Virus record (IMG/VR): IMGVR_UViG_3300048026_001019
Coordinates: 1-52,640 of that record
Strand: one strand, 5' to 3'
Length of the DNA: 52,640 nt
Source of the DNA: a virus
Shown here: one piece after another, positions 7,230 through 50,521 of the stretch
Layout: every line of letters begins with the position of its first letter
How positions within the stretch are numbered: position 1 is the stretch's first letter
Translations under genes and position numbers: made by a program
The notes under the pieces: model-generated
The model's input: the letters and a program-made list of their open reading frames with translations, nothing else
Told to the model about the DNA's origin: nothing
The model's database searches: none

Positions 7230-7335
7230 TGATTTTCCTTTGTTACTCTTTAATAGGTGAGCGTTGGGGGGAATTTTATTGCTCACATAGTAGTTATCTA
7301 TATTATTGAACCTTTGTATAGATAAGGTTACCATT

Positions 7336-7370
7336 AAAAAAGAGTGTGGCATCTCTGCAACACACTCTTT
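7336..7370 (-). terminator. Terminator of the tmRNA gene
   Basis: Minus strand stem AAAGAGTGTG/CACACTCTTT followed by a T-run, directly after the tmRNA coding piece. Confidence 0.85.
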
Positions 7371-7685
7371 AGTGCTATTTTTGGTAACAAGGTATAACTA
7401 CCCCGTAACAGCCTAAGCCGCTAATGCCATCTCTGGCGCATAATTGTCATTTGCAATTATAAGTTTCGTTCGCGTTAACCGAGCTTACATCCGGGCAACT
7501 CCACTCTCCTATTAACTAACAGTCGATCCTATTTCGACCCCATCATAAACACACGACTTGCACCCTTTCGAGGTCTTGTCCTATACACAGAAAAGCAGGT
7601 GTATCTACTCTCATGTGCTTATGGTGGAGTCGCCGGGTACCGCCCCCGGGTCCTGTCTAGCGTTTGAATTGCTTCAACGTTACAA
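7371..7685 (-). ncRNA. ssrA: Permuted two-piece tmRNA (alphaproteobacterial type)
   Basis: The order on the minus strand is acceptor piece, intervening spacer, coding piece, as in permuted alphaproteobacterial ssrA. The acceptor piece ends CGACTCC-ACCA at 7622. After about 80 nt of spacer, the coding piece begins GGGGTCGAAATAGGATCGAC at 7541. GGGGTCG pairs with CGACTCC over 7 bp, including a G3-U70 wobble, the alanine identity element. CTGTTAG in the coding piece can pair with CTAGACAG in the acceptor piece as helix 2. The tag reads ANDNYAPEMALAA. A consensus promoter and a strong terminator frame the gene. tmRNA rescues stalled ribosomes and tags products for proteolysis. Confidence 0.93.
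7413..7454 (-). other. tmRNA proteolysis-tag reading frame (ANDNYAPEMALAA)
   Basis: Resume codon GCA at 7454-7452 and stop TAG at 7415-7413. The 13-residue tag begins A-N-D-N-Y and ends A-L-A-A, the hydrophobic degron expected for ClpXP/ClpAP recognition. Confidence 0.9.
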
Positions 7686-7690
7686 ATATA

Positions 7691-7719
7691 TTTATAACAC
7701 AGAAATTGTTATATGTCAA
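7691..7719 (-). promoter_or_regulatory. Sigma-70-like promoter of the tmRNA gene
   Basis: Minus strand TTGACA (7714-7719), 17-nt spacer, TATAAA (7691-7696). Predicted start about 7684, just before the acceptor piece. Confidence 0.82.
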
Positions 7720-10239: not shown

Positions 10240-10843
10240 TCTCTTCTCCTGTAATATAAGAATAAATTTCTTTCCAATTTACTACTTTATGTATGCCATT
10301 AGCAAGTTCTTCATTCATATTGTGGCCGTGTTCGACCAATATTGGACGCAAGCCCTGCTTAAGGCCTGCCTCTGCATTTTCTAACTTATCTTCAATCCAG
10401 AAACAGTTAGAGTCCTTATATTCAGCAAGGGCTTCATCTTTTGGTGCGCCTGTTGCTAAACATATAAGTTTTGTAAAAGCTGATGTTCCAAAAAGCTTTT
10501 CTAAATTCATTCTACGAAGTTTATATGCATAGGTATCTGTGCTCATTGATGTTATACAATGAAACTCATAACCTTTTTCTTCGTGTAGTTTCTTTACATA
10601 ATGCACACTATCTCTTAGTGCTGGTAGAAAGCCCATTGCGGCACTTTCGTTAAACTGCTTTACAAGTTTATGTCCTTTATTATTGGATTCAACATTAAAG
10701 CTTTTGGATATATCATATTGGAAATTTGCACCAGGTTGCTTTTCGTAACCTTGTTGTTCCATCCAACAGCTAAATGCGTACTCCCAATTAAGTAGCACAC
10801 CGTCTGCATCTGTTAATATTAGTTTTTGAGCCTTATTTTTCAT
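10232..10843 (-). CDS. HAD-superfamily hydrolase/phosphatase
   Basis: 203 residues. Motif I is L-T-D-A-D-G-V-L-L-N-W-E (catalytic D-x-D), motif II I-T-S-M-S (about 105), and motif III/IV includes F-W-I-E-D-K-L-E-N-A (paired acidic residues). Nucleotidase-like members of this size occur in T4-like marine phages. Substrate unknown. It has a perfect sigma-70 promoter 33 nt upstream. Confidence 0.78.
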   Translation of the reverse strand: MKNKAQKLILTDADGVLLNWEYAFSCWMEQQGYEKQPGANFQYDISKSFNVESNNKGHKLVKQFNESAAMGFLPALRDSVHYVKKLHEEKGYEFHCITSMSTDTYAYKLRRMNLEKLFGTSAFTKLICLATGAPKDEALAEYKDSNCFWIEDKLENAEAGLKQGLRPILVEHGHNMNEELANGIHKVVNWKEIYSYITGEENE

Positions 10844-35574: not shown

Positions 35575-35627
35575 TGTGGCCGTACACTGACGAAGAATCA
35601 GATTGGCTAGATGATAAAAAGAGTTGA
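35574..35627 (+). CDS. Leader-like micro-ORF (17 aa) overlapping the alternative oxidase start
   Basis: M-W-P-Y-T-D-E-E-S-D-W-L-D-D-K-K-S, coupled by TAATG to the gene before and overlapping the oxidase ATG by 17 nt in another frame. It may serve translational coupling of the oxidase. Confidence 0.45.
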   Translation: MWPYTDEESDWLDDKKS

Positions 35628-36204
35628 CATCGCCGATAGTATAGCGTTTAGGCTTACAATGATGTTTAGATGGTTTGCAGATACTTTTTTTGCAAAGCGT
35701 TATGGACACAGAGCAGTAGTACTTGAAACTGTTGCCGGAGTACCAGGTATGGTAGCAGGCATGTGGAATCACTTACGTAGCCTAAGAAAGATGCAACCTG
35801 ATGAGCGAGGCTGGATTAAGACTTTACTAGACGAAGCTGAAAACGAACGAATGCATTTAATGATCTTCATTGAAATTGCAAAACCAAATATCTTTGAAAG
35901 ATTATTAATTGCATTTGCTCAGCTTGTTTTTTGGCACTTCTATCTAGTTTTATACATTTTCTTTCCAGGCACTGCACACAGGATGATAGGATACTTTGAA
36001 GATCAAGCTGTTATTTCATACACACAATATCTAGATGAAATAAAAAGTAGCAAGGTTGAAAATATTCCTGCTCCGCAAATTGCAATAGATTATTACGGAT
36101 TGAAAAAAACTGCAAAGTTAAGTGATGTAATTAAAAAAGTAAGAGCTGACGAGCAAGGGCATGCAGATGTTAATCACGGAATGGCTGACCAAATAAACAA
36201 ATAA
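35611..36204 (+). CDS. aox: Alternative oxidase (ubiquinol oxidase, diiron)
   Basis: 197 residues. All six diiron ligands of AOX can be placed: L-E-T-V-A-G-V-P-G-M-V (Glu), L-L-D-E-A-E-N-E-R-M-H-L (Glu and His), F-E-D-Q-A-V-I-S-Y-T (Glu) and V-R-A-D-E-Q-G-H-A-D-V-N-H (Glu and His). Two hydrophobic helices of the interfacial-membrane type sit around residues 104-130. AOX moves electrons from quinol to oxygen without proton pumping, so it would bypass complexes III/IV. Cyanophages carry the relative PTOX. Last gene of a micro-ORF operon. Confidence 0.93.
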   Translation: MIKRVDIADSIAFRLTMMFRWFADTFFAKRYGHRAVVLETVAGVPGMVAGMWNHLRSLRKMQPDERGWIKTLLDEAENERMHLMIFIEIAKPNIFERLLIAFAQLVFWHFYLVLYIFFPGTAHRMIGYFEDQAVISYTQYLDEIKSSKVENIPAPQIAIDYYGLKKTAKLSDVIKKVRADEQGHADVNHGMADQINK

Positions 36205-38349: not shown

Positions 38350-39543
38350 TCACTTTATAACCTTAACCAATGCGTCTACTAAATCGCTCATCATAGCGTC
38401 AGTGTGCAAAGGAGTTGGTGCGATCCTTAACCTTTCTGTTCCTTCTGGAACAGTTGGGTAGTTAATGGGTTGTATATAAATCCCATATTCATTAAGCAAC
38501 TCGTCACTAATTTCTTTGCAACGCTTTGCATCTCTTATCATTACAGGAACTATGTGTGTGCTTGCAACATCTAGCACTTCTATGTCAACTTCTGCTAACA
38601 TAGACTTTAACTTAGATGCACGTTCTTGATGTTGAACACGCAACTCATTATGATCCTTTAAATATTTAATTGAAGCTAAGGCACCAGCACAAATCACAGG
38701 ACTCATGCTGGTAGTGAATATAAATCCACTAGCTACTGATCTGATTGCGTCTATGACAATCCCTTCACCAGCTATGTAACCGCCTTGTACTCCAAACGCT
38801 TTGCCTAAAGTTCCGTTGACTATATCAACTACACCTTCTTGTCCGACTTCTTCTAGCTTACCGGCCCCTGATTCCCCGTACAAGCCTACAGCATGTACTT
38901 CGTCTAGATATGTTATGGCCCTATACTTTTCGGCTAGCTCGCAAACACCTTTAATTGGACTTACGTCACCATCCATGCTATACACAGATTCAAATACAAT
39001 ACATGGTATCATATCGTTAGCTACGCAATCTTGCAATTTTTCTTCTAAGTCGCTCAGATCATTGTGCTTCCATCTTGCCTTAGGAGCACCACTATGTCTT
39101 ATACCTTCTATCAGGCTGGCATGGTTCATGTCGTCACTTAAAAACATAATGTTGGGAATGATTTTGCTTAGAGCAACCAGTGTCCACTCATTGGCAACAT
39201 ATGCACTTGTATACAATAAAGCACTTGAAGTACCATGCAATTTTGCAAGCTCATGCTCTAGTGCTACATGGTAGTGCGAAGTACCGCCAATGTTTCGCGT
39301 ACCACCTGATCCACTTCCTGTTTGATCTAAGGCAGTATGCATTGCATCAATGACGACTTTATTCTGACCCATACCGAGGTAATCATTACTACACCAGTTT
39401 ACAATATTTTTTATTGCATAAGGCCCGTACCAAATTGATTTAGGAAAGTCACCGCGTTCACGAAGTATATCGTTAAACACTCTGTACCTACCTTGCTGTT
39501 TTAGGTCCCGTAGAACCTGTTCAAATGGATCCTTGTCTATCAT
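38350..39543 (-). CDS. hemA: 5-aminolevulinate synthase
   Basis: 397 residues, PLP-dependent. W-C-S-N-D-Y-L-G-M-G-Q, G-S-G-S-G-G-T-R-N-I-G-G-T-S-H-Y-H, L-S-D-D-M-N-H-A-S-L-I-E-G-I-R, Y-L-D-E-V-H-A-V-G-L-Y-G and the Schiff-base G-T-L-G-K-A-F-G are all canonical ALAS motifs. It makes ALA from glycine and succinyl-CoA, the committed heme step in alphaproteobacteria. There is no visible ribosome-binding site: a TTAAATA box ends 5 nt before the ATG, suggesting a leaderless mRNA. Confidence 0.93.
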   Translation of the reverse strand: MIDKDPFEQVLRDLKQQGRYRVFNDILRERGDFPKSIWYGPYAIKNIVNWCSNDYLGMGQNKVVIDAMHTALDQTGSGSGGTRNIGGTSHYHVALEHELAKLHGTSSALLYTSAYVANEWTLVALSKIIPNIMFLSDDMNHASLIEGIRHSGAPKARWKHNDLSDLEEKLQDCVANDMIPCIVFESVYSMDGDVSPIKGVCELAEKYRAITYLDEVHAVGLYGESGAGKLEEVGQEGVVDIVNGTLGKAFGVQGGYIAGEGIVIDAIRSVASGFIFTTSMSPVICAGALASIKYLKDHNELRVQHQERASKLKSMLAEVDIEVLDVASTHIVPVMIRDAKRCKEISDELLNEYGIYIQPINYPTVPEGTERLRIAPTPLHTDAMMSDLVDALVKVIK

Positions 39544-40306: not shown

Positions 40307-41137
40307 ATGACGCAACTAATATCGCCGAAGAAGTTTACAAACACCGTTGACCTTTTAAGGTCATTTTTTTTGGACAAAGGATTTTTAGAAGTCCATACGC
40401 AGAATAGGCTTAGTATACTAGCCGCATGCGAAGATCCATTTAATGTAGCAACATATAATTACGCAGGCCAAGTTTGGCCATTGCCGCAAACAGGCCAGAT
40501 GTGGCTAGAACATGAATTATTAAGTAGCCCCGATAGTAAGGGGTTTTTTTGTGTCTCCACTTCCTATAGACAAGAACCAAACGCTATTCCGGGTAGACAC
40601 GATATAATATTTCCAATGTTTGAATTTGAAATGCCAGGTAGTGTTGATGATCTTAAAGCAATGGAGTATGAACTATGTGAGTACTTGGGCTTTGATGCAC
40701 TAACAGAAAAAACATATAGAGAATGGCAACAGCATTGGGGTATAAGTGCAGACACTGAAATGGATGCAAGTCACGAACTAGCAATGGAGATGAACTTTGG
40801 TAGTTGTTTGATTACAAACTTTCCAGAGCTAACATCACCTTTCTGGAACATGGCTAGAAACGATGATGGCAATACAGCAAAGAAAATGGATGTTATACTA
40901 GGCGGTATGGAAACTATTGGATCAGCAGAACGCTCATGCGATGTTGATATGATGCGTGATACATTCCATAGTATTGTAGATGGAGAGTATAGCGAATTAC
41001 TATACAAACTATTTGGCAAAGAACGTGTAGAAGCAGAGCTTGAAAAGTTTTTAGAGTTTGACTTTTTTCAAAGAGTAGGCGGAGGTATTGGTATTACACG
41101 TATGATACCTGCACTAGAAAAGATCAACAAGATATAA
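40307..41137 (+). CDS. Stand-alone class II aminoacyl-tRNA synthetase core, AsnRS/AspRS-like
   Basis: 276 residues. Motif 1 region F-F-L-D-K-G-F-L-E-V-H-T, then L-P-Q-T-G-Q-M-W-L, motif 2 C-V-S-T-S-Y-R-Q-E-P ... G-R-H-D-I-I-F-P-M-F-E-F-E, the class IIb block I-T-N-F-P-E-L-T-S-P-F-W-N-M, G-G-M-E-T-I-G-S-A-E-R-S and motif 3 V-G-G-G-I-G-I-T-R-M. The N-terminal anticodon-binding OB domain of AspRS/AsnRS/LysRS is absent. AsnA or EpmA-like activity is the main alternative. AAGGA precedes the ATG. A tRNA with an Asn anticodon begins 6 nt after the stop. Confidence 0.8.
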   Translation: MTQLISPKKFTNTVDLLRSFFLDKGFLEVHTQNRLSILAACEDPFNVATYNYAGQVWPLPQTGQMWLEHELLSSPDSKGFFCVSTSYRQEPNAIPGRHDIIFPMFEFEMPGSVDDLKAMEYELCEYLGFDALTEKTYREWQQHWGISADTEMDASHELAMEMNFGSCLITNFPELTSPFWNMARNDDGNTAKKMDVILGGMETIGSAERSCDVDMMRDTFHSIVDGEYSELLYKLFGKERVEAELEKFLEFDFFQRVGGGIGITRMIPALEKINKI

Positions 41138-41143
41138 GAATGA

Positions 41144-41243
41144 TCTGGGGTGGTGAAATGGTAGACACGCACGGCTGTTAACCGTGTGGTAAGTAACTCG
41201 CAAAGTATTTACCGTGGAGGTTCGAGTCCTTCCCCCAGAGCCA
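41144..41243 (+). tRNA. Unusual tRNA with anticodon GTT (Asn) and a class II-length variable arm
   Basis: 100 nt with CCA encoded. Acceptor TCTGGGG/CCCCAGA (7 bp), discriminator G. A three-pair D stem (GTG/CAC) with a Leu-like D loop (AAATGGTAGA). Anticodon stem CACGG/CCGTG, loop CTGTTAA, anticodon 41177-41179. The 29-nt variable region (41187-41215) folds as GGTAAGTA/TATTTACC (8 bp, one G-U). T arm GGAGG/CCTTC with loop TTCGAGT. Anticodon and G73 fit Asn, but ordinary tRNA-Asn has a 5-nt variable loop; the body looks like tRNA-Leu/Ser. Confidence 0.9.
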
Positions 41244-41326
41244 ACTAAATACTATACGTTCATCCCATAAAGGGACGGAAGTAGCACTAGCGAAGGAACG
41301 CACTTTAACCGCAAGGGAGAGGTGTT
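41244..41326 (+). other. Structured leader with a late-type box before a micro-ORF
   Basis: Directly after the tRNA CCA comes CTAAATACTATACG, then CCCATAAAGGGACGGAAG and CCGCAAGGGAGAGG before ATG 41327. CCC/GGG and other short stems suggest a compact fold. Possible regulatory RNA or leader; not assigned. Confidence 0.4.
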
Positions 41327-42020: not shown

Positions 42021-42355
42021 TCATAACTTTCGCCAGTTTCACGAAAGAAGTTTTCACTCCAAAACGCTTTGTCATCTATCCAAATATCGTAGTTCTCTTT
42101 TTCACCTACGCTTAGTTCATGGAACTTTGCACCCCATTTTACTAATTGGTTATTTGTTAGATTGTAATAGTCTACTCCACTAACACAACCTCTAGCTGTC
42201 ATATATTTAATTGTGTGTCCTGCGTCAAATAGTGCATTTACTTTTGCAATACGATCTGGCATTGGTATATGATTAGCATAGTCTTTTTTGCCACCGCTGT
42301 CAGGTATAATTACTTCTTTACAGATGGTGCCATCAATATCAATTACGTACTTCAA
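42017..42355 (-). CDS. HAD-type phosphatase (capsule-biosynthesis phosphatase-like)
   Basis: 112 residues. Motif I Y-V-I-D-I-D-G-T-I-C, motif II M-T-A-R-G, and W-I-D-D-K-A (acidic pair). Its small cap-less size is like polysaccharide or nucleotide phosphatases of phages. Stop/start overlap with PEPCK. A sugar-phosphate substrate would fit the operon (inference). Confidence 0.75.
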   Translation of the reverse strand: MKYVIDIDGTICKEVIIPDSGGKKDYANHIPMPDRIAKVNALFDAGHTIKYMTARGCVSGVDYYNLTNNQLVKWGAKFHELSVGEKENYDIWIDDKAFWSENFFRETGESYE

Positions 42356-43536
42356 TTCAATAATCCTTCCAAAGTTTGTAGTACTTGCTCACTGTTATCA
42401 GCTCTTCCTGTAACAATAGCATCTTTAACACATTGTCTAGTAAACTCTAACGGAAACCTTGCTCCGTCTTTGTCCATACCTGTGTTAACTAGATAGACAT
42501 TAGCTTTATGTGTGTCTATTTTATCCATTAATAAATCGCTATATTCAGAAACTGCCCTAGGCATAAAGGGCGAACCATAGCAAGGACTAAACAAAGGTTT
42601 GATTTCGTTTGTTCCTGCTTCTGTTCCTGGCATTTGACTAGTGTATCCTGTTTCAAAAAACCTACGCACTGTGTTGCCGCTTATTTTACTAATAGGTGGA
42701 AACATGCCTTTGGCATCCATTGTTAAAAAGAAAATGTTAGTAGGGTGATCAAAATCTGTTGTGTCATATGCATTTTCAACAAGGTTTAAAGGATAACTTA
42801 GCCTAGCATTAGCGGCGCCTGGGTTTTCTTCAACCAAACAATTGTTTGACCTTGCTAGCTCTACTGCATTAAAAATAGTTGGATGTGTTTCAGGTGTTAG
42901 CCCTTCGCTCTTAGCATAACACCCTGTTTCTATCATATTAACGCCTTCGTAGTTCCATGCTATTTCGTCATCACCAATTAGTTTGTAATCAGGATCGCTA
43001 GACAATGTAGTTTTACCAGTGCCACTAAGACCAAACATAAGATTAGTACTGTCCTTGTAAGTAAATGCACTACAATGCATAGGAAGTACTTTATGTTCTG
43101 GTAATTCAAAACTTACAATACCAAACACGCCTTTCTTAATTTCTCCTAAGAACGTAGTGCCTGCAATTAGCATTACATGTTCGTCTAGATGTACGTGTAT
43201 TTTAGGCTTTGACATTTCAATGTCTGTGTTATGTAGTATTGTCCAGTCAGCTGTATATTGTAATGGGTTATCAACCACAGGAAACATATTGCGTACAAAT
43301 TGTGCATGCCTGTCGTCATTTGTTTCTACTCTAAAACAAAGGCCGCAAGTATAAAACACAAGATTATGATTGTATTCTAATTCATACATATCGTTATGGA
43401 AGTCTTTAAAGTCTTGCTCATTACCAATCTTATTATACTTAGGCCTAGTAAGATCTAATGCTTCAGTACGATGTCCAAAAAAGTATTTGTTCTCCGGACT
43501 TCTACCTGTCGGGTGTGTCGTTATATTAATATTCAT
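42352..43536 (-). CDS. pckA: Phosphoenolpyruvate carboxykinase (ATP-type), shortened
   Basis: 394 residues against about 530 in cells. T-G-R-S-P-E-N-K-Y-F-F (substrate loop), G-T-T-F-L-G-E-I-K-K-G-V, M-H-C-S-A-F, kinase-1a loop G-L-S-G-T-G-K-T-T-L-S, kinase-2 L-I-G-D-D-E, G-C-Y-A-K, G-Y-T-S-Q-M-P-G-T-E and V-N-T-G-M are all retained. The N terminus and several surface segments are trimmed. It makes PEP from oxaloacetate and ATP, the entry step of gluconeogenesis. Overlaps gap by 11 nt. Confidence 0.9.
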   Translation of the reverse strand: MNINITTHPTGRSPENKYFFGHRTEALDLTRPKYNKIGNEQDFKDFHNDMYELEYNHNLVFYTCGLCFRVETNDDRHAQFVRNMFPVVDNPLQYTADWTILHNTDIEMSKPKIHVHLDEHVMLIAGTTFLGEIKKGVFGIVSFELPEHKVLPMHCSAFTYKDSTNLMFGLSGTGKTTLSSDPDYKLIGDDEIAWNYEGVNMIETGCYAKSEGLTPETHPTIFNAVELARSNNCLVEENPGAANARLSYPLNLVENAYDTTDFDHPTNIFFLTMDAKGMFPPISKISGNTVRRFFETGYTSQMPGTEAGTNEIKPLFSPCYGSPFMPRAVSEYSDLLMDKIDTHKANVYLVNTGMDKDGARFPLEFTRQCVKDAIVTGRADNSEQVLQTLEGLLN

Positions 43537-44497
43537 TTATTAATCCTATATGAGAAGCTGTATCGGCCATTCTATTACTGAATGCCCATTCGTTGTCGTA
43601 CCAGCATAATACTCTAACTAACTTCCCACAAACAAGTGTACTGTCGGCTGCAAAGATACAACTTTCGTTTGTAGTATTAAAGTCCATGCTTACTAATGGT
43701 CTAGTTTCAAAACCAATAATTCCTTTCATTTCATTTTCGCTTGCTGTTTTTACAATATCATTTACTGTATCAACATCAACATCTGCTTCGCTATAAAAGT
43801 GTAAGTCAATACAACTTACATTCGGTGTAGGTACTCTTATAGCACTTCCAATAATTTTCCCTTCCATTTCAGGTAGTACCGACTTAAGAGCCTTAGCGGC
43901 TCCTGTTGTAGTTGGTATCATACTCATTGCGGCCGCCCTAGCACGATATAAATCATCATGCCTCCTATCGATTGTAGCTTGGTCGCCTGTGTAGCTATGA
44001 ATTGTAGTCATTGAACCACGTATGATTCCTAAACTATCATTTAAAACTTTTACAATTGGGGCAAGGCAGTTTGTTGTGCAACTTGCACTACTAATGATAC
44101 TATCTTTTACTGATATATCATTATGATTAACACCATAAACAACTGTACGGTCTACATTCTTTCCCGGCGAACTTATGAGAACAGTCTTTGCACCGTTTTG
44201 AAGATGTACACTAGATTGATTCCCATCTCTAAACTGCCCTGTGCATTCTAACAAAACATCAACACCTTTCCAATTTAATAGATTAATATCCCTTGTGTGT
44301 GAGTATGTTGTAGTGTCTTTTAGTTTGCCCTTCCATCTGCCATGCACACTATCAAAATTTAACAAATGATTGTTTACATGTTCATCGCCTGTGGCGTTTA
44401 TTCTAACTAGTTCAAGGTCGTCTCTTTCGTCTGTGATGATTCGGGCTAGGCAACGACCTATCCTTCCAAAACCATTTATTCCAACTTTTGTTGTCAC
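43526..44497 (-). CDS. gap: Glyceraldehyde-3-phosphate dehydrogenase
   Basis: 323 residues. G-I-N-G-F-G-R-I-G-R NAD-binding start, catalytic S-C-T-T-N-C-L-A-P, H-S-Y-T-G-D-Q, R-R-A-A-A-style loop (R-A-R-A-A-A-M-S-M-I-P-T-T-T-G-A-A-K-A) and W-Y-D-N-E-W. Phosphorylating enzyme; works in either direction. Directly follows aldolase (adjacent stop/start). Confidence 0.96.
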   Translation of the reverse strand: MTTKVGINGFGRIGRCLARIITDERDDLELVRINATGDEHVNNHLLNFDSVHGRWKGKLKDTTTYSHTRDINLLNWKGVDVLLECTGQFRDGNQSSVHLQNGAKTVLISSPGKNVDRTVVYGVNHNDISVKDSIISSASCTTNCLAPIVKVLNDSLGIIRGSMTTIHSYTGDQATIDRRHDDLYRARAAAMSMIPTTTGAAKALKSVLPEMEGKIIGSAIRVPTPNVSCIDLHFYSEADVDVDTVNDIVKTASENEMKGIIGFETRPLVSMDFNTTNESCIFAADSTLVCGKLVRVLCWYDNEWAFSNRMADTASHIGLINEY

Positions 44498-45307
44498 TTA
44501 TGTACTCGCTTCTGTTATATCCTTTATGTTCATGCTCAGAGTCATATCAAATTCTACATCTGTTTGATGATGAAACAAACCTTCACTTAGGGCTCTACTA
44601 AAACTTGCAGTCATATTATCATTTTGTGCAAGTCGACGACATGCTTCCTCAGTAGAGTATCCTCCACTTAGACCAACAACTGCATGTACACTTTTATGTC
44701 CTATAAGGTCTTTATACATATTTGGTTGTTCAGGTAGCGTTAATTTAAGAATACATTTACCATCAAATTCATCTAAACGTTTCTTAAGTCCGTGTAGCAA
44801 GGCTATCTCTAGTCCTTGCTTGTGTTCATGTTCTATTGGAACTTCAGGCTCTACTATTGGCATAAGTTCCCATGCATGTATTTTTTTAGCTAGCTCAAAC
44901 TGCTGATCCAATACACTGTCTACTATTTCTTGAGTCTTAACAATACTACGCATCTTAGTACCTACACAGCCTTTGGCAACTGCATATGTAAGTATTTCAT
45001 TAGTATCAAAGTCTTTAAGTGTACCGTCATCTGCACAGCCACTGTCTATTTTTAGATAAGGGTGAATACCTTTTTGTCTAAGAATAGGAACCATACCTCT
45101 ATCAACTGTGTCACGATACAAAATAGCCGCCCATATACTATCATTATTAAAGTCTGGAGAGCTTACCATACGCAAACGCATATCATGTACTTTATCCATT
45201 TTATCTTCTTCAGTATACGCTTGTCCGTATCGTTCTAGTACTCCTCCTGTTGAACCACCACTGTGATCCATTGCGGCTATAAATCTACTCATATATAAGT
45301 TCTCCAT
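44498..45307 (-). CDS. Fructose-bisphosphate aldolase class I (bacterial type)
   Basis: 269 residues. A-A-M-D-H-S-G-G-S-T-G-G-V-L near the N terminus, L-K-I-D-S-G-C-A, P-I-V-E-P-E-V, Schiff-base strand I-L-K-L-T-L-P-E, then A-L-S-G-G-Y-S-like V-G-L-S-G-G-Y-S-T-E-E-A and A-S-F-S-R-A-L-S-E-G-L. It matches the monomer-type class I aldolase of Firmicutes, somewhat short. It condenses triose phosphates into FBP. Overlaps the HNH gene by 19 nt. Confidence 0.92.
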   Translation of the reverse strand: MENLYMSRFIAAMDHSGGSTGGVLERYGQAYTEEDKMDKVHDMRLRMVSSPDFNNDSIWAAILYRDTVDRGMVPILRQKGIHPYLKIDSGCADDGTLKDFDTNEILTYAVAKGCVGTKMRSIVKTQEIVDSVLDQQFELAKKIHAWELMPIVEPEVPIEHEHKQGLEIALLHGLKKRLDEFDGKCILKLTLPEQPNMYKDLIGHKSVHAVVGLSGGYSTEEACRRLAQNDNMTASFSRALSEGLFHHQTDVEFDMTLSMNIKDITEAST

Positions 45308-47761: not shown

Positions 47762-48058
47762 ATGAAGATTGAAGATATACCTGCAGGTGAAAGTTGGGCC
47801 TGTCGCTTTAAAGTAACAACATTTGTAGACAAAGATTCTGGTCTTGCTGTACAAGATAAAAATGTACAACCAGGACAAGCACATAAAGGTGTTCCAGGAG
47901 ATTACGAAAGTATTGGTTTGATTGAAGTGCGAGATATCGAGAATCGTCTTGTTCAACTTCTAGATACCGTAACAGATATTACATTCAAAGTAAATTTTGA
48001 TGATTGCTGGGACGTAGATAAAGTTGAATGGATTAATGAACCGACCGAATTGGCATAG
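47762..48058 (+). CDS. Small beta-rich hypothetical protein
   Basis: 98 residues. ATG 47762 follows AGGAGG, preferred over GTG 47693. Strand pattern: S-W-A-C-R-F-K-V-T-T-F-V, I-G-L-I-E-V-R-D-I-E-N-R-L-V-Q-L-L, I-T-F-K-V-N-F. No family recognised. Overlaps the first hydroxylase-like gene by 23 nt. Confidence 0.68.
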   Translation: MKIEDIPAGESWACRFKVTTFVDKDSGLAVQDKNVQPGQAHKGVPGDYESIGLIEVRDIENRLVQLLDTVTDITFKVNFDDCWDVDKVEWINEPTELA

Positions 48059-48620
48059 AATAAACTTAGATGTAACAGATGCTCTAAAGATTAATCTAAA
48101 AGATTATATCCTCAGCGACCCATACCGCGAAGGCGAACATGCACTTTATATAGAAGGAAAAGCAGGCGTATGGACATTAAATCCTGATACTATATTTAAA
48201 CAGGACTTTCTTAATGATCTAGGTATAAAAGTAGATCTAGCACAAATATTTTACAGAGCTCCACATTATCAACATCCAGGGGCCCATGTTGATCTTGGAC
48301 AAACAGGAGAACTGTATGGTGCAGGGTTAAATTGGACAGTTGATCCGGATGATGCTGAGATGACTTGGTATGAAATGCCTAATGTAGAAGGTACAAATAC
48401 CAAAAGAAGTGAAACAGATCAAAACATGGAATGGCCACTAGAACAATTGACAGAAATAGATAGGTTGTGCATAGGGCAAACTCCTACACTTGTACGCACA
48501 GATGTTCCTCATACTGTAGATATGGGTAGTAATGAACGTTGGTTGATTAGTGCAAGATTTTTATGGCACTGGTCATGGGACGACTATACTAAAACATTAA
48601 AAGATAGGATTGTACAATGA
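48036..48620 (+). CDS. Asp/Asn beta-hydroxylase-like dioxygenase, copy 1
   Basis: 194 residues. Core: F-Y-R-A-P-H-Y-Q-H-P-G-A-H-V-D-L-G (Fe ligands H-x-D), a later R-T-D-V-P-H-T-V-D-M-G (second His) and E-R-W-L-I-S-A-R (2-oxoglutarate Arg region). The N terminus (N-W-H-R-I-N-L-D-V) matches copies 2 and 3. Predicted Fe(II)/2OG hydroxylase of aspartyl/asparaginyl beta-hydroxylase type. Substrate unknown. Confidence 0.72.
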   Translation: MNRPNWHRINLDVTDALKINLKDYILSDPYREGEHALYIEGKAGVWTLNPDTIFKQDFLNDLGIKVDLAQIFYRAPHYQHPGAHVDLGQTGELYGAGLNWTVDPDDAEMTWYEMPNVEGTNTKRSETDQNMEWPLEQLTEIDRLCIGQTPTLVRTDVPHTVDMGSNERWLISARFLWHWSWDDYTKTLKDRIVQ

Positions 48621-49378
48621 AAAACTGGGTAAGACTTGATATCGATACCAAAGATGCAATTAATATTGATGTTAAGAAGCACTGCTTTGACAACACAGAT
48701 AGAGCTGACGTATTCATAGAAGGACACGGGGGTATTTGGACTTTTGGTAAAGATGAAATATTCAGCCAAACATGGGTAGACTATGTAAAAGAAACATGCC
48801 CATTTTTAGACGTGACTGGCGCACTTATATTTTGGAGAGCTCCAGGTTATCAACACGCTGGCGCACATATAGACGTAGCCCCTAACAATAGCCCTAGTAG
48901 GGTAGAGGGTGTAGAATATGAAAACGGATTTCATGCAACTAATTCTAGCGATAGCATGGATGTCAACGACTTTTACCCTGTAGTTAGTAGCTACAACTGG
49001 ATACTAGATGAAGGCGATGATAGTGCTATGACATGGCACGAGCCTCTAGACACTGCAAAAATAGAACTAAAGAAATTTACTGACGCTGTACACTATGATG
49101 AAATACCTGTGAGCGAATGTAAAGAAATAGATAGATGCACAATAGGACACGACAAACTTGTAATGGTTAGAACAAATGTACTACACAACGTAGACATGGG
49201 CCAACAAGAGCGTTGGGCTATTAGTGCTAGATGTATTATGAATTGGGCTACATGGGATGAAGCTGTTGACAAACTACAACCATGGATCGTACAGCCTAAA
49301 GAATTTGGTGGACCAACTGGTGCTGAGCCTACACGCTTTGGCACATGGGAACACAAAGGTAGAGAGGTTGACTTTTAA
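48617..49378 (+). CDS. Asp/Asn beta-hydroxylase-like dioxygenase, copy 2
   Basis: 253 residues. F-W-R-A-P-G-Y-Q-H-A-G-A-H-I-D-V-A, an insert of about 30 residues, W-I-L-D-E-G-D-D-S-A-M-T-W-H, and R-T-N-V-L-H-N-V-D-M-G with E-R-W-A-I-S-A-R. N-W-V-R-L-D-I-D-T at the start. It overlaps copy 1 by 4 nt. All metal-ligand positions are retained. Confidence 0.75.
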   Translation: MKNWVRLDIDTKDAINIDVKKHCFDNTDRADVFIEGHGGIWTFGKDEIFSQTWVDYVKETCPFLDVTGALIFWRAPGYQHAGAHIDVAPNNSPSRVEGVEYENGFHATNSSDSMDVNDFYPVVSSYNWILDEGDDSAMTWHEPLDTAKIELKKFTDAVHYDEIPVSECKEIDRCTIGHDKLVMVRTNVLHNVDMGQQERWAISARCIMNWATWDEAVDKLQPWIVQPKEFGGPTGAEPTRFGTWEHKGREVDF

Positions 49379-49790: not shown

Positions 49791-49884
49791 TGTTATAATT
49801 GGCAATTTAATATTTTGGCCAATTTACTTTTGGGTATGCACAATACCCTACAAAATGTTTCAAGCAGCAATAGACAATGCGTAA
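49783..49884 (+). CDS. Membrane micro-protein (33 aa)
   Basis: M-I-D-V-I-I-G-N-L-I-F-W-P-I-Y-F-W-V-C-T then amphipathic; overlaps both neighbours by 8 nt. Possible membrane anchor peptide. Start GGAGAG. Confidence 0.5.
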   Translation: MIDVIIGNLIFWPIYFWVCTIPYKMFQAAIDNA

Positions 49885-50521
49885 TTGGGTAGAAACAGAT
49901 CTAAGTGTTGAAAATGCATTTAGTGTAGACCCTCGAGAATATCTACGCAATCACCCTGAGTTTATACAAATAGCCACAGGCGGAGCAACTGTTTGGCAAT
50001 GCGATCATAAATTATTACTTACAAATGAGTTTACTGCATTACTTAACAACTATTTTGAATGTAACATTACCGGTGTACTTGTATTTCATAGGAAAGCAGG
50101 ATATCAACACCCTGGTGCTCATATAGATGTAGATCCACAAGAGGGATTAAATCTTCCTGTAACTTTAAGCTACAACTGGGTACTAGAGGAAGATAATAAT
50201 CCTATGGTGTGGTACAAGCCCTGGTGGGATCCTGAAAACATGGATCAAGCTAGCCAAGCGGCTAAAGGACAACTACCTTTCCCTGGGCTAGAATCTAGTA
50301 GCCCAGATGCAGGCTCAATGACTTATCAGGAAACACCTTGTGAACTACTAGAACGTGATAGCGAACACTGTCTTAGTCATAAAGTAGTTACTGTATGTAG
50401 AACTAACGTTCCGCACAATGTTGATATGATATCTGATAAAGATAGATGGTGTGTTACTGCCCGCAGTTGGGGCGATCAAGACCCTATGTGGTCACAAGTA
50501 TATAACAGTCTAGTTAATTGA
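49877..50521 (+). CDS. Asp/Asn beta-hydroxylase-like dioxygenase, copy 3
   Basis: 214 residues. F-H-R-K-A-G-Y-Q-H-P-G-A-H-I-D-V-D, S-Y-N-W-V-L-E-E-D-N-N-P-M-V-W-Y and R-T-N-V-P-H-N-V-D-M-I with D-R-W-C-V-T-A-R. Same architecture as copies 1 and 2. Its end overlaps the convergent radical SAM gene by 12 nt. Confidence 0.75.
   Translation: MRNWVETDLSVENAFSVDPREYLRNHPEFIQIATGGATVWQCDHKLLLTNEFTALLNNYFECNITGVLVFHRKAGYQHPGAHIDVDPQEGLNLPVTLSYNWVLEEDNNPMVWYKPWWDPENMDQASQAAKGQLPFPGLESSSPDAGSMTYQETPCELLERDSEHCLSHKVVTVCRTNVPHNVDMISDKDRWCVTARSWGDQDPMWSQVYNSLVN

Follow-up and report, generated by a model that had tools for sequence, protein, structure and literature searches.

The window analysed here, a stretch of 52,640 nucleotides that forms an IMG/VR virus record, carries on its minus strand a functional-looking two-piece tmRNA, and the segment between the two pieces probably serves as a cargo slot which is filled and exchanged among these phages. 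The evidence, as read from the sequences of the window and its relatives, consists of the anatomy of the gene, the exchange of spacers between tmRNA cores, a mobile structured RNA module in the spacer of the window, and protein genes under selection in the spacers of relatives.

The gene is a complete permuted tmRNA of the alpha type and extends from 7683 to 7371 (Table 1). With ARAGORN, a minus-strand permuted tmRNA was called at 7322-7718, and its tag, ANDNYAPEMALAA, is the one read in the initial annotation. The Rfam search that had been proposed there gave 106.6 bits for alpha_tmRNA (RF01849; E 3.5e-28, cut-off 50), and the model tmRNA_permuted (RF04321) gave 106.9 bits (E 6e-20, cut-off 47), so that both scores exceed twice the curated cut-offs. 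A one-piece folding, which had been named as the result that would speak against a two-piece gene, was rejected, as the one-piece family of Rfam was unreported at this locus, also at a relaxed threshold. The order of the parts is as had been described, with the acceptor piece before the coding piece and 80 nt between them; the strand had been left unstated, and all features of the tmRNA lie on the minus strand. The acceptor stem GGGGUCG/CGACUCC (7541-7535 with 7632-7622) bears the expected G3-U70 pair and is followed by an encoded CCA, pairing between the two spacer ends makes this stem longer, and the tag frame finishes with a small hydrophobic degron end and a stop (ANDNYAPEMALAA*). The piece order, the G3-U70 acceptor stem, the T arm and the tag frame are those of the alphaproteobacterial tmRNAs in RF01849 and RF04321, whereas the window differs from the bacterial members by its far lower score, its virus-only tag and the cargo in its spacer. 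The observation is confirmed: this is a functional-looking viral two-piece tmRNA, a gene of a known type.

Table 1. Features of the tmRNA gene and of its spacer, by position in the window.
Feature	Position	Strand	Basis or remark
Promoter, sigma-70-type	7691..7719	-	Sequence and conservation among viral tmRNA genes
-35 element TTGACA	7719-7714	-	17-nt spacing to the -10 element
-10 element TATAAA	7696-7691	-	
Acceptor piece (T arm, 3' strand of acceptor stem, encoded CCA end)	7622..7683	-	RF01849/RF04321 alignments, ARAGORN
Intervening spacer, 80 nt	7542..7621	-	Ends pair, extending the acceptor stem
Structured RNA module, ~75 nt	7546..7621	-	Covariance model R1, 96.9 bits
23-codon ORF within the spacer	7543..7614	-	Judged a by-product of the RNA module
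Coding piece, first letters GGGGUCGAAAUAGGAUCGAC, G1 at 7541	7371..7541	-	ARAGORN, Rfam
Tag reading frame GCA..UAG (GCA...TAG in DNA), ANDNYAPEMALAA	7413..7454	-	ARAGORN, Rfam
Intrinsic terminator (13 pairs, 2-nt bulge, U-rich tail)	7336..7370	-	-15.3 kcal/mol, z -5.57

The consensus promoter and the strong terminator that had been noticed are likewise borne out. The predicted transcription start adjoins the 5' end of the acceptor piece. Of 204 distinct regions upstream of viral tmRNAs, 157 have a TTGACA-17-TATAAA-type promoter at equal distance, compared with 17 of 204 after shuffling. A simple promoter scan with strict definitions missed both the promoter and the terminator of the window tmRNA, the former because the scan requires a T at position 6. 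Among the scanned proteins of the window no SmpB was recognised; the host, or the missing part of the genome, would have to supply it.

As to the identity of the virus, the NrdB protein of the window is nearest to those of the pelagiphages HTVC008M and Mosig (65-66%). According to PMC9004378, 53 of 133 distinct phage tmRNAs are two-piece, 50 of these being from marine or aquatic phages, and a permuted ssrA is annotated in the record of phage DSS3_MAL1; as two-piece phage tmRNAs have thus been published already, the window tmRNA as such is not new. The Methylophilales phage Melnitz (MZ577097), a marine T4-like phage, likewise has a permuted alpha-type tmRNA with its own promoter, as described in the same paper, and its tmRNA pieces are similar to those of the window by blastn. 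It differs by the tag ANDNYVPVDYALAA and by a 142-nt spacer which holds an unannotated ORF (MFKWLSKTRLVVITRDYF...) rather than the RNA module of the window; the passages of PMC9004378 that were consulted make no mention of this ORF. The Roseobacter and Rhodobacter phages DSS3_MAL1, DSS3P8 and RcRudolph, with alphaproteobacterial hosts, have two-piece tmRNAs too, but with tags such as ANTNAAPMEMAIAA and with spacers of about 98-106 nt that contain no evident gene.

The inside of the 80-nt spacer, which the initial annotation had passed over, is the seat of the novelty. When the window is compared with its relative L009, the acceptor pieces are identical (62/62) and the coding pieces agree by 97%, yet the spacers measure 80 and 54 nt and resemble each other barely more than shuffled controls do. 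Conversely, the spacer of the window is 99% identical to those of L227/L235, although the coding piece is only 77% identical. This mismatch of identity between core and spacer shows that the spacer moves independently of the tmRNA. On the tree of viral tmRNAs, changes between spacers with and without an ORF number at least 46, some weak single ORFs being counted among the former. The tmRNA database paper (PMC11915505) describes two odd spacers in permuted tmRNAs, of which one contains a tRNA-Ala gene and the other a repetitive element; unlike the viral group, these are reported as single cases, with neither protein genes nor exchange between cores. Searches of the open-access literature brought up no description of protein-coding tmRNA spacers, and the spacer as an exchangeable cargo slot is new as far as could be checked, and has good support from the sequences.

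In the window the insert is a mobile structured RNA. The module is composed of a closing stem, a stem-loop AUACAC/GUGUAU, a variable hairpin and near-invariant joining sequences, and a pattern search found it in 45 viral contigs, where it occupies the spacers of tmRNAs that differ in acceptor stem and core, and is also present outside tmRNA, upstream of tRNA-Pro genes. Among 18 distinct copies, 98.8% of the cells of the proposed structure are paired, far above shuffled and slid controls, and seven pairs show changes on both sides. A covariance model built from these 18 copies and applied to the loci collected here recovered two further copies outside tmRNA, in L030 (82 bits) and in L034 (79 bits). 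RNAalifold proposes an alternative fold, in which GAGAGUAG pairs with CUGCUUUC, and this competes with the hand-drawn fold; both are supported, and as their helices would hardly form in full together, each is a candidate for the true fold.

Several known or simpler identities of this insert were tried. Apart from the tmRNA models, an Rfam search of the module gave no match other than a non-significant one to miR-430, and a known ribozyme or riboswitch was accordingly rejected. The manA RNA motif (RF01745; PMC2864571) is, like the module, a structured RNA of marine phages, but the manA model does not include the module, whose stem and conserved core are distinct. In L519 and L034 the module is located directly downstream of a full-length manA-like match below the gathering score, and in both the match stops before the module. 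The 23-codon ORF in the spacer of the window was rejected as a gene, for homologous modules break its frame through indels and different ends and keep the pairing. The spacer of the window thus has no credible protein gene, and what we say about protein cargo rests on the relatives. As minor observations, L034 also has, at 10670-10735 on the minus strand, a ROSE_3-like thermosensor (34.8 bits, cut-off 43) that immediately precedes a phage hsp20 gene, and upstream of both lie the manA-like RNA and a copy of the spacer module; and noncoding spacers of 65-127 nt in L113/L130, L016/L048, L127/L148 and L099/L243 look like other shared structured RNAs.

Protein genes are found in the spacers of relatives. 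Tag, acceptor or 5' sequence, regardless of the spacer, served to select 146 distinct viral genes, among which 18 spacers are 130 nt or longer; every one of these contains an ORF, which fills most of the spacer in 17, mostly 65-95% of its length and half of it in L115. With further loci included, at least 15 families of spacer ORFs have two or more distinct sequences. Several families consist of two nearly identical members, too alike for a measure of selection. When one short first ORF is set aside, the six largest families have pN/pS values of 0.15-0.37, with third codon positions changing most, and the larger families are by this measure under purifying selection. One singleton ORF is DUF6356 by Pfam (E 3e-12). 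For the MEIIWHILLTVC family, 80 loci out of 317 relatives were covered, about 30 of them nested in a tmRNA spacer (L542-L544 counted as nested) and about 49 free-standing; 28 of the non-nested set have a tmRNA acceptor piece at most 700 nt downstream. When nested, the protein has an S[MV]SL end which is encoded by the 3' strand of the spacer. No relatives of two nested proteins were found in named phages at E 0.01. Some spacers contain two overlapping ORFs; for example in L338, L340, L346 and others, an acidic ORF of 23-25 aa (..GDSDEE..) is followed by a one-helix membrane-like protein (MFK.YI.WSICAD..) that overlaps it.

The two ends of the spacer form a joint helix in nearly all of these viruses. 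Pairing over at least seven of eight positions is found in 186 of 191 distinct viral spacers, compared with 87 expected when the 3' ends are re-dealt. A Shine-Dalgarno sequence lies in the first 9 nt of 52 spacers, a sample partly selected for this motif (the count of ORFs in all 18 long spacers was not so selected), and the helix is kept in all 52. Where the 5' strand carries the Shine-Dalgarno sequence (TAAGGACA, AAAGGAGA and others), the 3' strand is altered to match (TGTCTTTA, TCTCTTTT), and these compensating changes imply that the translation start, the stop codon and the processing helix share nucleotides. Moreover, in the VVTYLLL, MDEV-LW and MDFHW families and in Melnitz the stop codon is located 13-59 nt inside the coding piece, that is beyond G1, so that a cut at G1 would leave a nonstop message.

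On this basis translation of the nested gene might be coupled to the maturation of the tmRNA, in that the RNase P cut would make a nonstop message which is then tagged by the tmRNA itself. The Shine-Dalgarno sequences inside a helix that is kept in all 52 spacers and the stop codons placed beyond G1 speak for such a coupling, but other families end within the spacer, there are only three frame options after the helix so that the stop positions may be merely tolerated, and the idea is inapplicable to the window's own spacer; we regard it as doubtful. A broader version is offered tentatively: viral permuted tmRNAs may be composite genes, whose removable spacer takes in mobile structured RNAs and small protein genes, and owing to the shared helix a transcript could either have its cargo translated or mature into tmRNA, but not both, with a nonstop, self-tagged message in some families.

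Returning to the cargo slot, which we prefer, we infer the processing and charging of the RNA, the tagging and the translation of the cargo as follows. The host RNA polymerase, starting at the strong promoter and stopping at the terminator, would make a single precursor, the spacer ends would pair and lengthen the acceptor stem, and host RNase P at G1 together with 3'-end nucleases at the CCA would excise the spacer and leave a two-piece tmRNA, by analogy with the removal known from alphaproteobacterial tmRNAs. Host AlaRS would charge the tmRNA (G3-U70), and host SmpB would aid the rescue of stalled ribosomes, with AANDNYAPEMALAA being added and the ClpXP-type degron end kept. Inserts would be tolerated in the spacer because it is removed: in the window a mobile structured RNA, and in relatives a single small protein gene or a pair, which have Shine-Dalgarno sequences of their own and whose expression the tmRNA promoter would drive. 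A circularly permuted RNA gene could in this manner serve as a cargo slot for protein genes and mobile RNA modules, while the flanks of the transcript become a ribosome-rescue RNA, and at least 15 families of small phage proteins, together with a new structured RNA motif, are added to those known. Gene callers can miss such spacer proteins because they lie inside an annotated RNA, as seen in the cultured phage Melnitz, where the spacer ORF lies inside the annotated tmRNA and has no annotation of its own. The arrangement may also offer a direct, testable link between tmRNA maturation and translation.

The initial annotation had further suggested that the tag might alter which protease clears the stalled products and that it would point to the host group. 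With the charged alanine the tag is AANDNYAPEMALAA, which keeps the AAND-N-Y start and the ALAA end; the former is the SspB/ClpA contact in E. coli, and the latter the ClpX contact. As both degron ends are kept, the sequence lends no support to a change of protease. That the phage tag differs from that of the host in order to steer stalled products toward another protease is unlikely: the tag is indeed virus-specific and unlike those of SAR11, and a ClpS adaptor is also encoded in the window, but the start and end of the degron are ordinary for alphaproteobacteria, and the middle residues of tags vary among bacteria with no known change of protease. The genes for the ClpS adaptor, Hsp20 and ribosomal protein S21 are at 122-436, 483-968 and 2189-2485 of the window (minus strand), at the end of the fragment where the tmRNA also lies, and make up a translation and protein-quality block; ClpS is a conceivable partner of the tmRNA, and among named phages it is found chiefly in large ones.

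As a pointer to the host, the tag proved weak. The exact tag, with any codon choice, was found in 56 viral contigs, and among 84,980 bacterial and archaeal species in a single contig (L007; 29,883 bp, from a MAG). This contig equals the IMG/VR viral contig L036 in size and in the tmRNA region, and its MAG has no second tmRNA; L007 (PALK01000009.1, in a 'Rickettsiales' MAG) is a viral sequence binned as bacterial. As the sole cellular match is viral, no host follows from the tag, and host assignment by the tag was rejected. The proposed comparison with the tags of candidate hosts was carried through for SAR11, in 32 genomes picked out with a 16S probe sequence and the order to which it pointed. 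Their tags are short (ANDELALAA, ANNKLALAA, ANESYALAA) and differ from that of the window, and their tmRNA spacers are 6-13 nt; by tag and spacer size, SAR11 was rejected as the donor of the tmRNA or the source of a recent capture. On the tree of cores, the viral tmRNAs are nearly wholly separate from the bacterial ones, with 3 changes where 62 are expected by shuffling, and the bacterial genes listed score about 190-313 bits, where the window tmRNA reaches 107 bits. A virus-only tag on a separate viral branch marks a viral lineage and names no host, and a phage tmRNA tag should be taken with caution rather than as a simple host pointer.

It is quite unlikely that we are dealing with an ordinary two-piece phage tmRNA with a meaningless, fast-drifting spacer, where ORFs and structures arise by chance. 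It is true that open frames are frequent in spacers below 100 nt (12 of 48 distinct spacers of 60-99 nt) and that spacer sizes vary in alphaproteobacteria as well (6-104 nt in 48 others, long ones being deliberately included). But chance is already contradicted by the data at hand, namely the ORFs in all the long spacers, the pN/pS values well under 1 that the large families show, the Pfam match, the free-standing homologues of a nested gene, and an RNA module which covaries and is mobile. The gene ssrA is a known integration site of phages. That a host tmRNA was recently captured, perhaps at such a site, and has no viral function is very improbable, since phages do integrate there but the viral tmRNAs are nearly one group, the score is far from those of the bacterial genes listed, and the gene is complete and has its own conserved promoter. 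Integration at ssrA is discussed in PMC9004378.

Besides the tmRNA, the window contains other features of some interest. At 40307-41304 (plus strand), a 276-aa class II synthetase-like protein with weak AsnRS/AspRS similarity is followed by a tRNA, a glutamine riboswitch and a 28-codon ORF; the tRNA has a long variable arm and an anticodon loop CTGTTAA that we read as GUU (Asn), where ARAGORN gives Gly(acc), and the protein and tRNA are possibly a phage synthetase-tRNA pair. At 42352-45307 (minus strand), consecutive genes for PEPCK, GAPDH and class I fructose-bisphosphate aldolase make up a phage-borne piece of gluconeogenesis. An alternative oxidase (Pfam E 3e-74) is encoded at 35611-36204 (plus strand) and a 5-aminolevulinate synthase (E 4e-165) at 38350-39543 (minus strand), in a phage whose host is probably a heterotroph. 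Finally, the neighbouring ORFs at 48024-48620, 48617-49378 and 49877-50521 (plus strand) look by eye like paralogues and share a GAHIDV-type motif.
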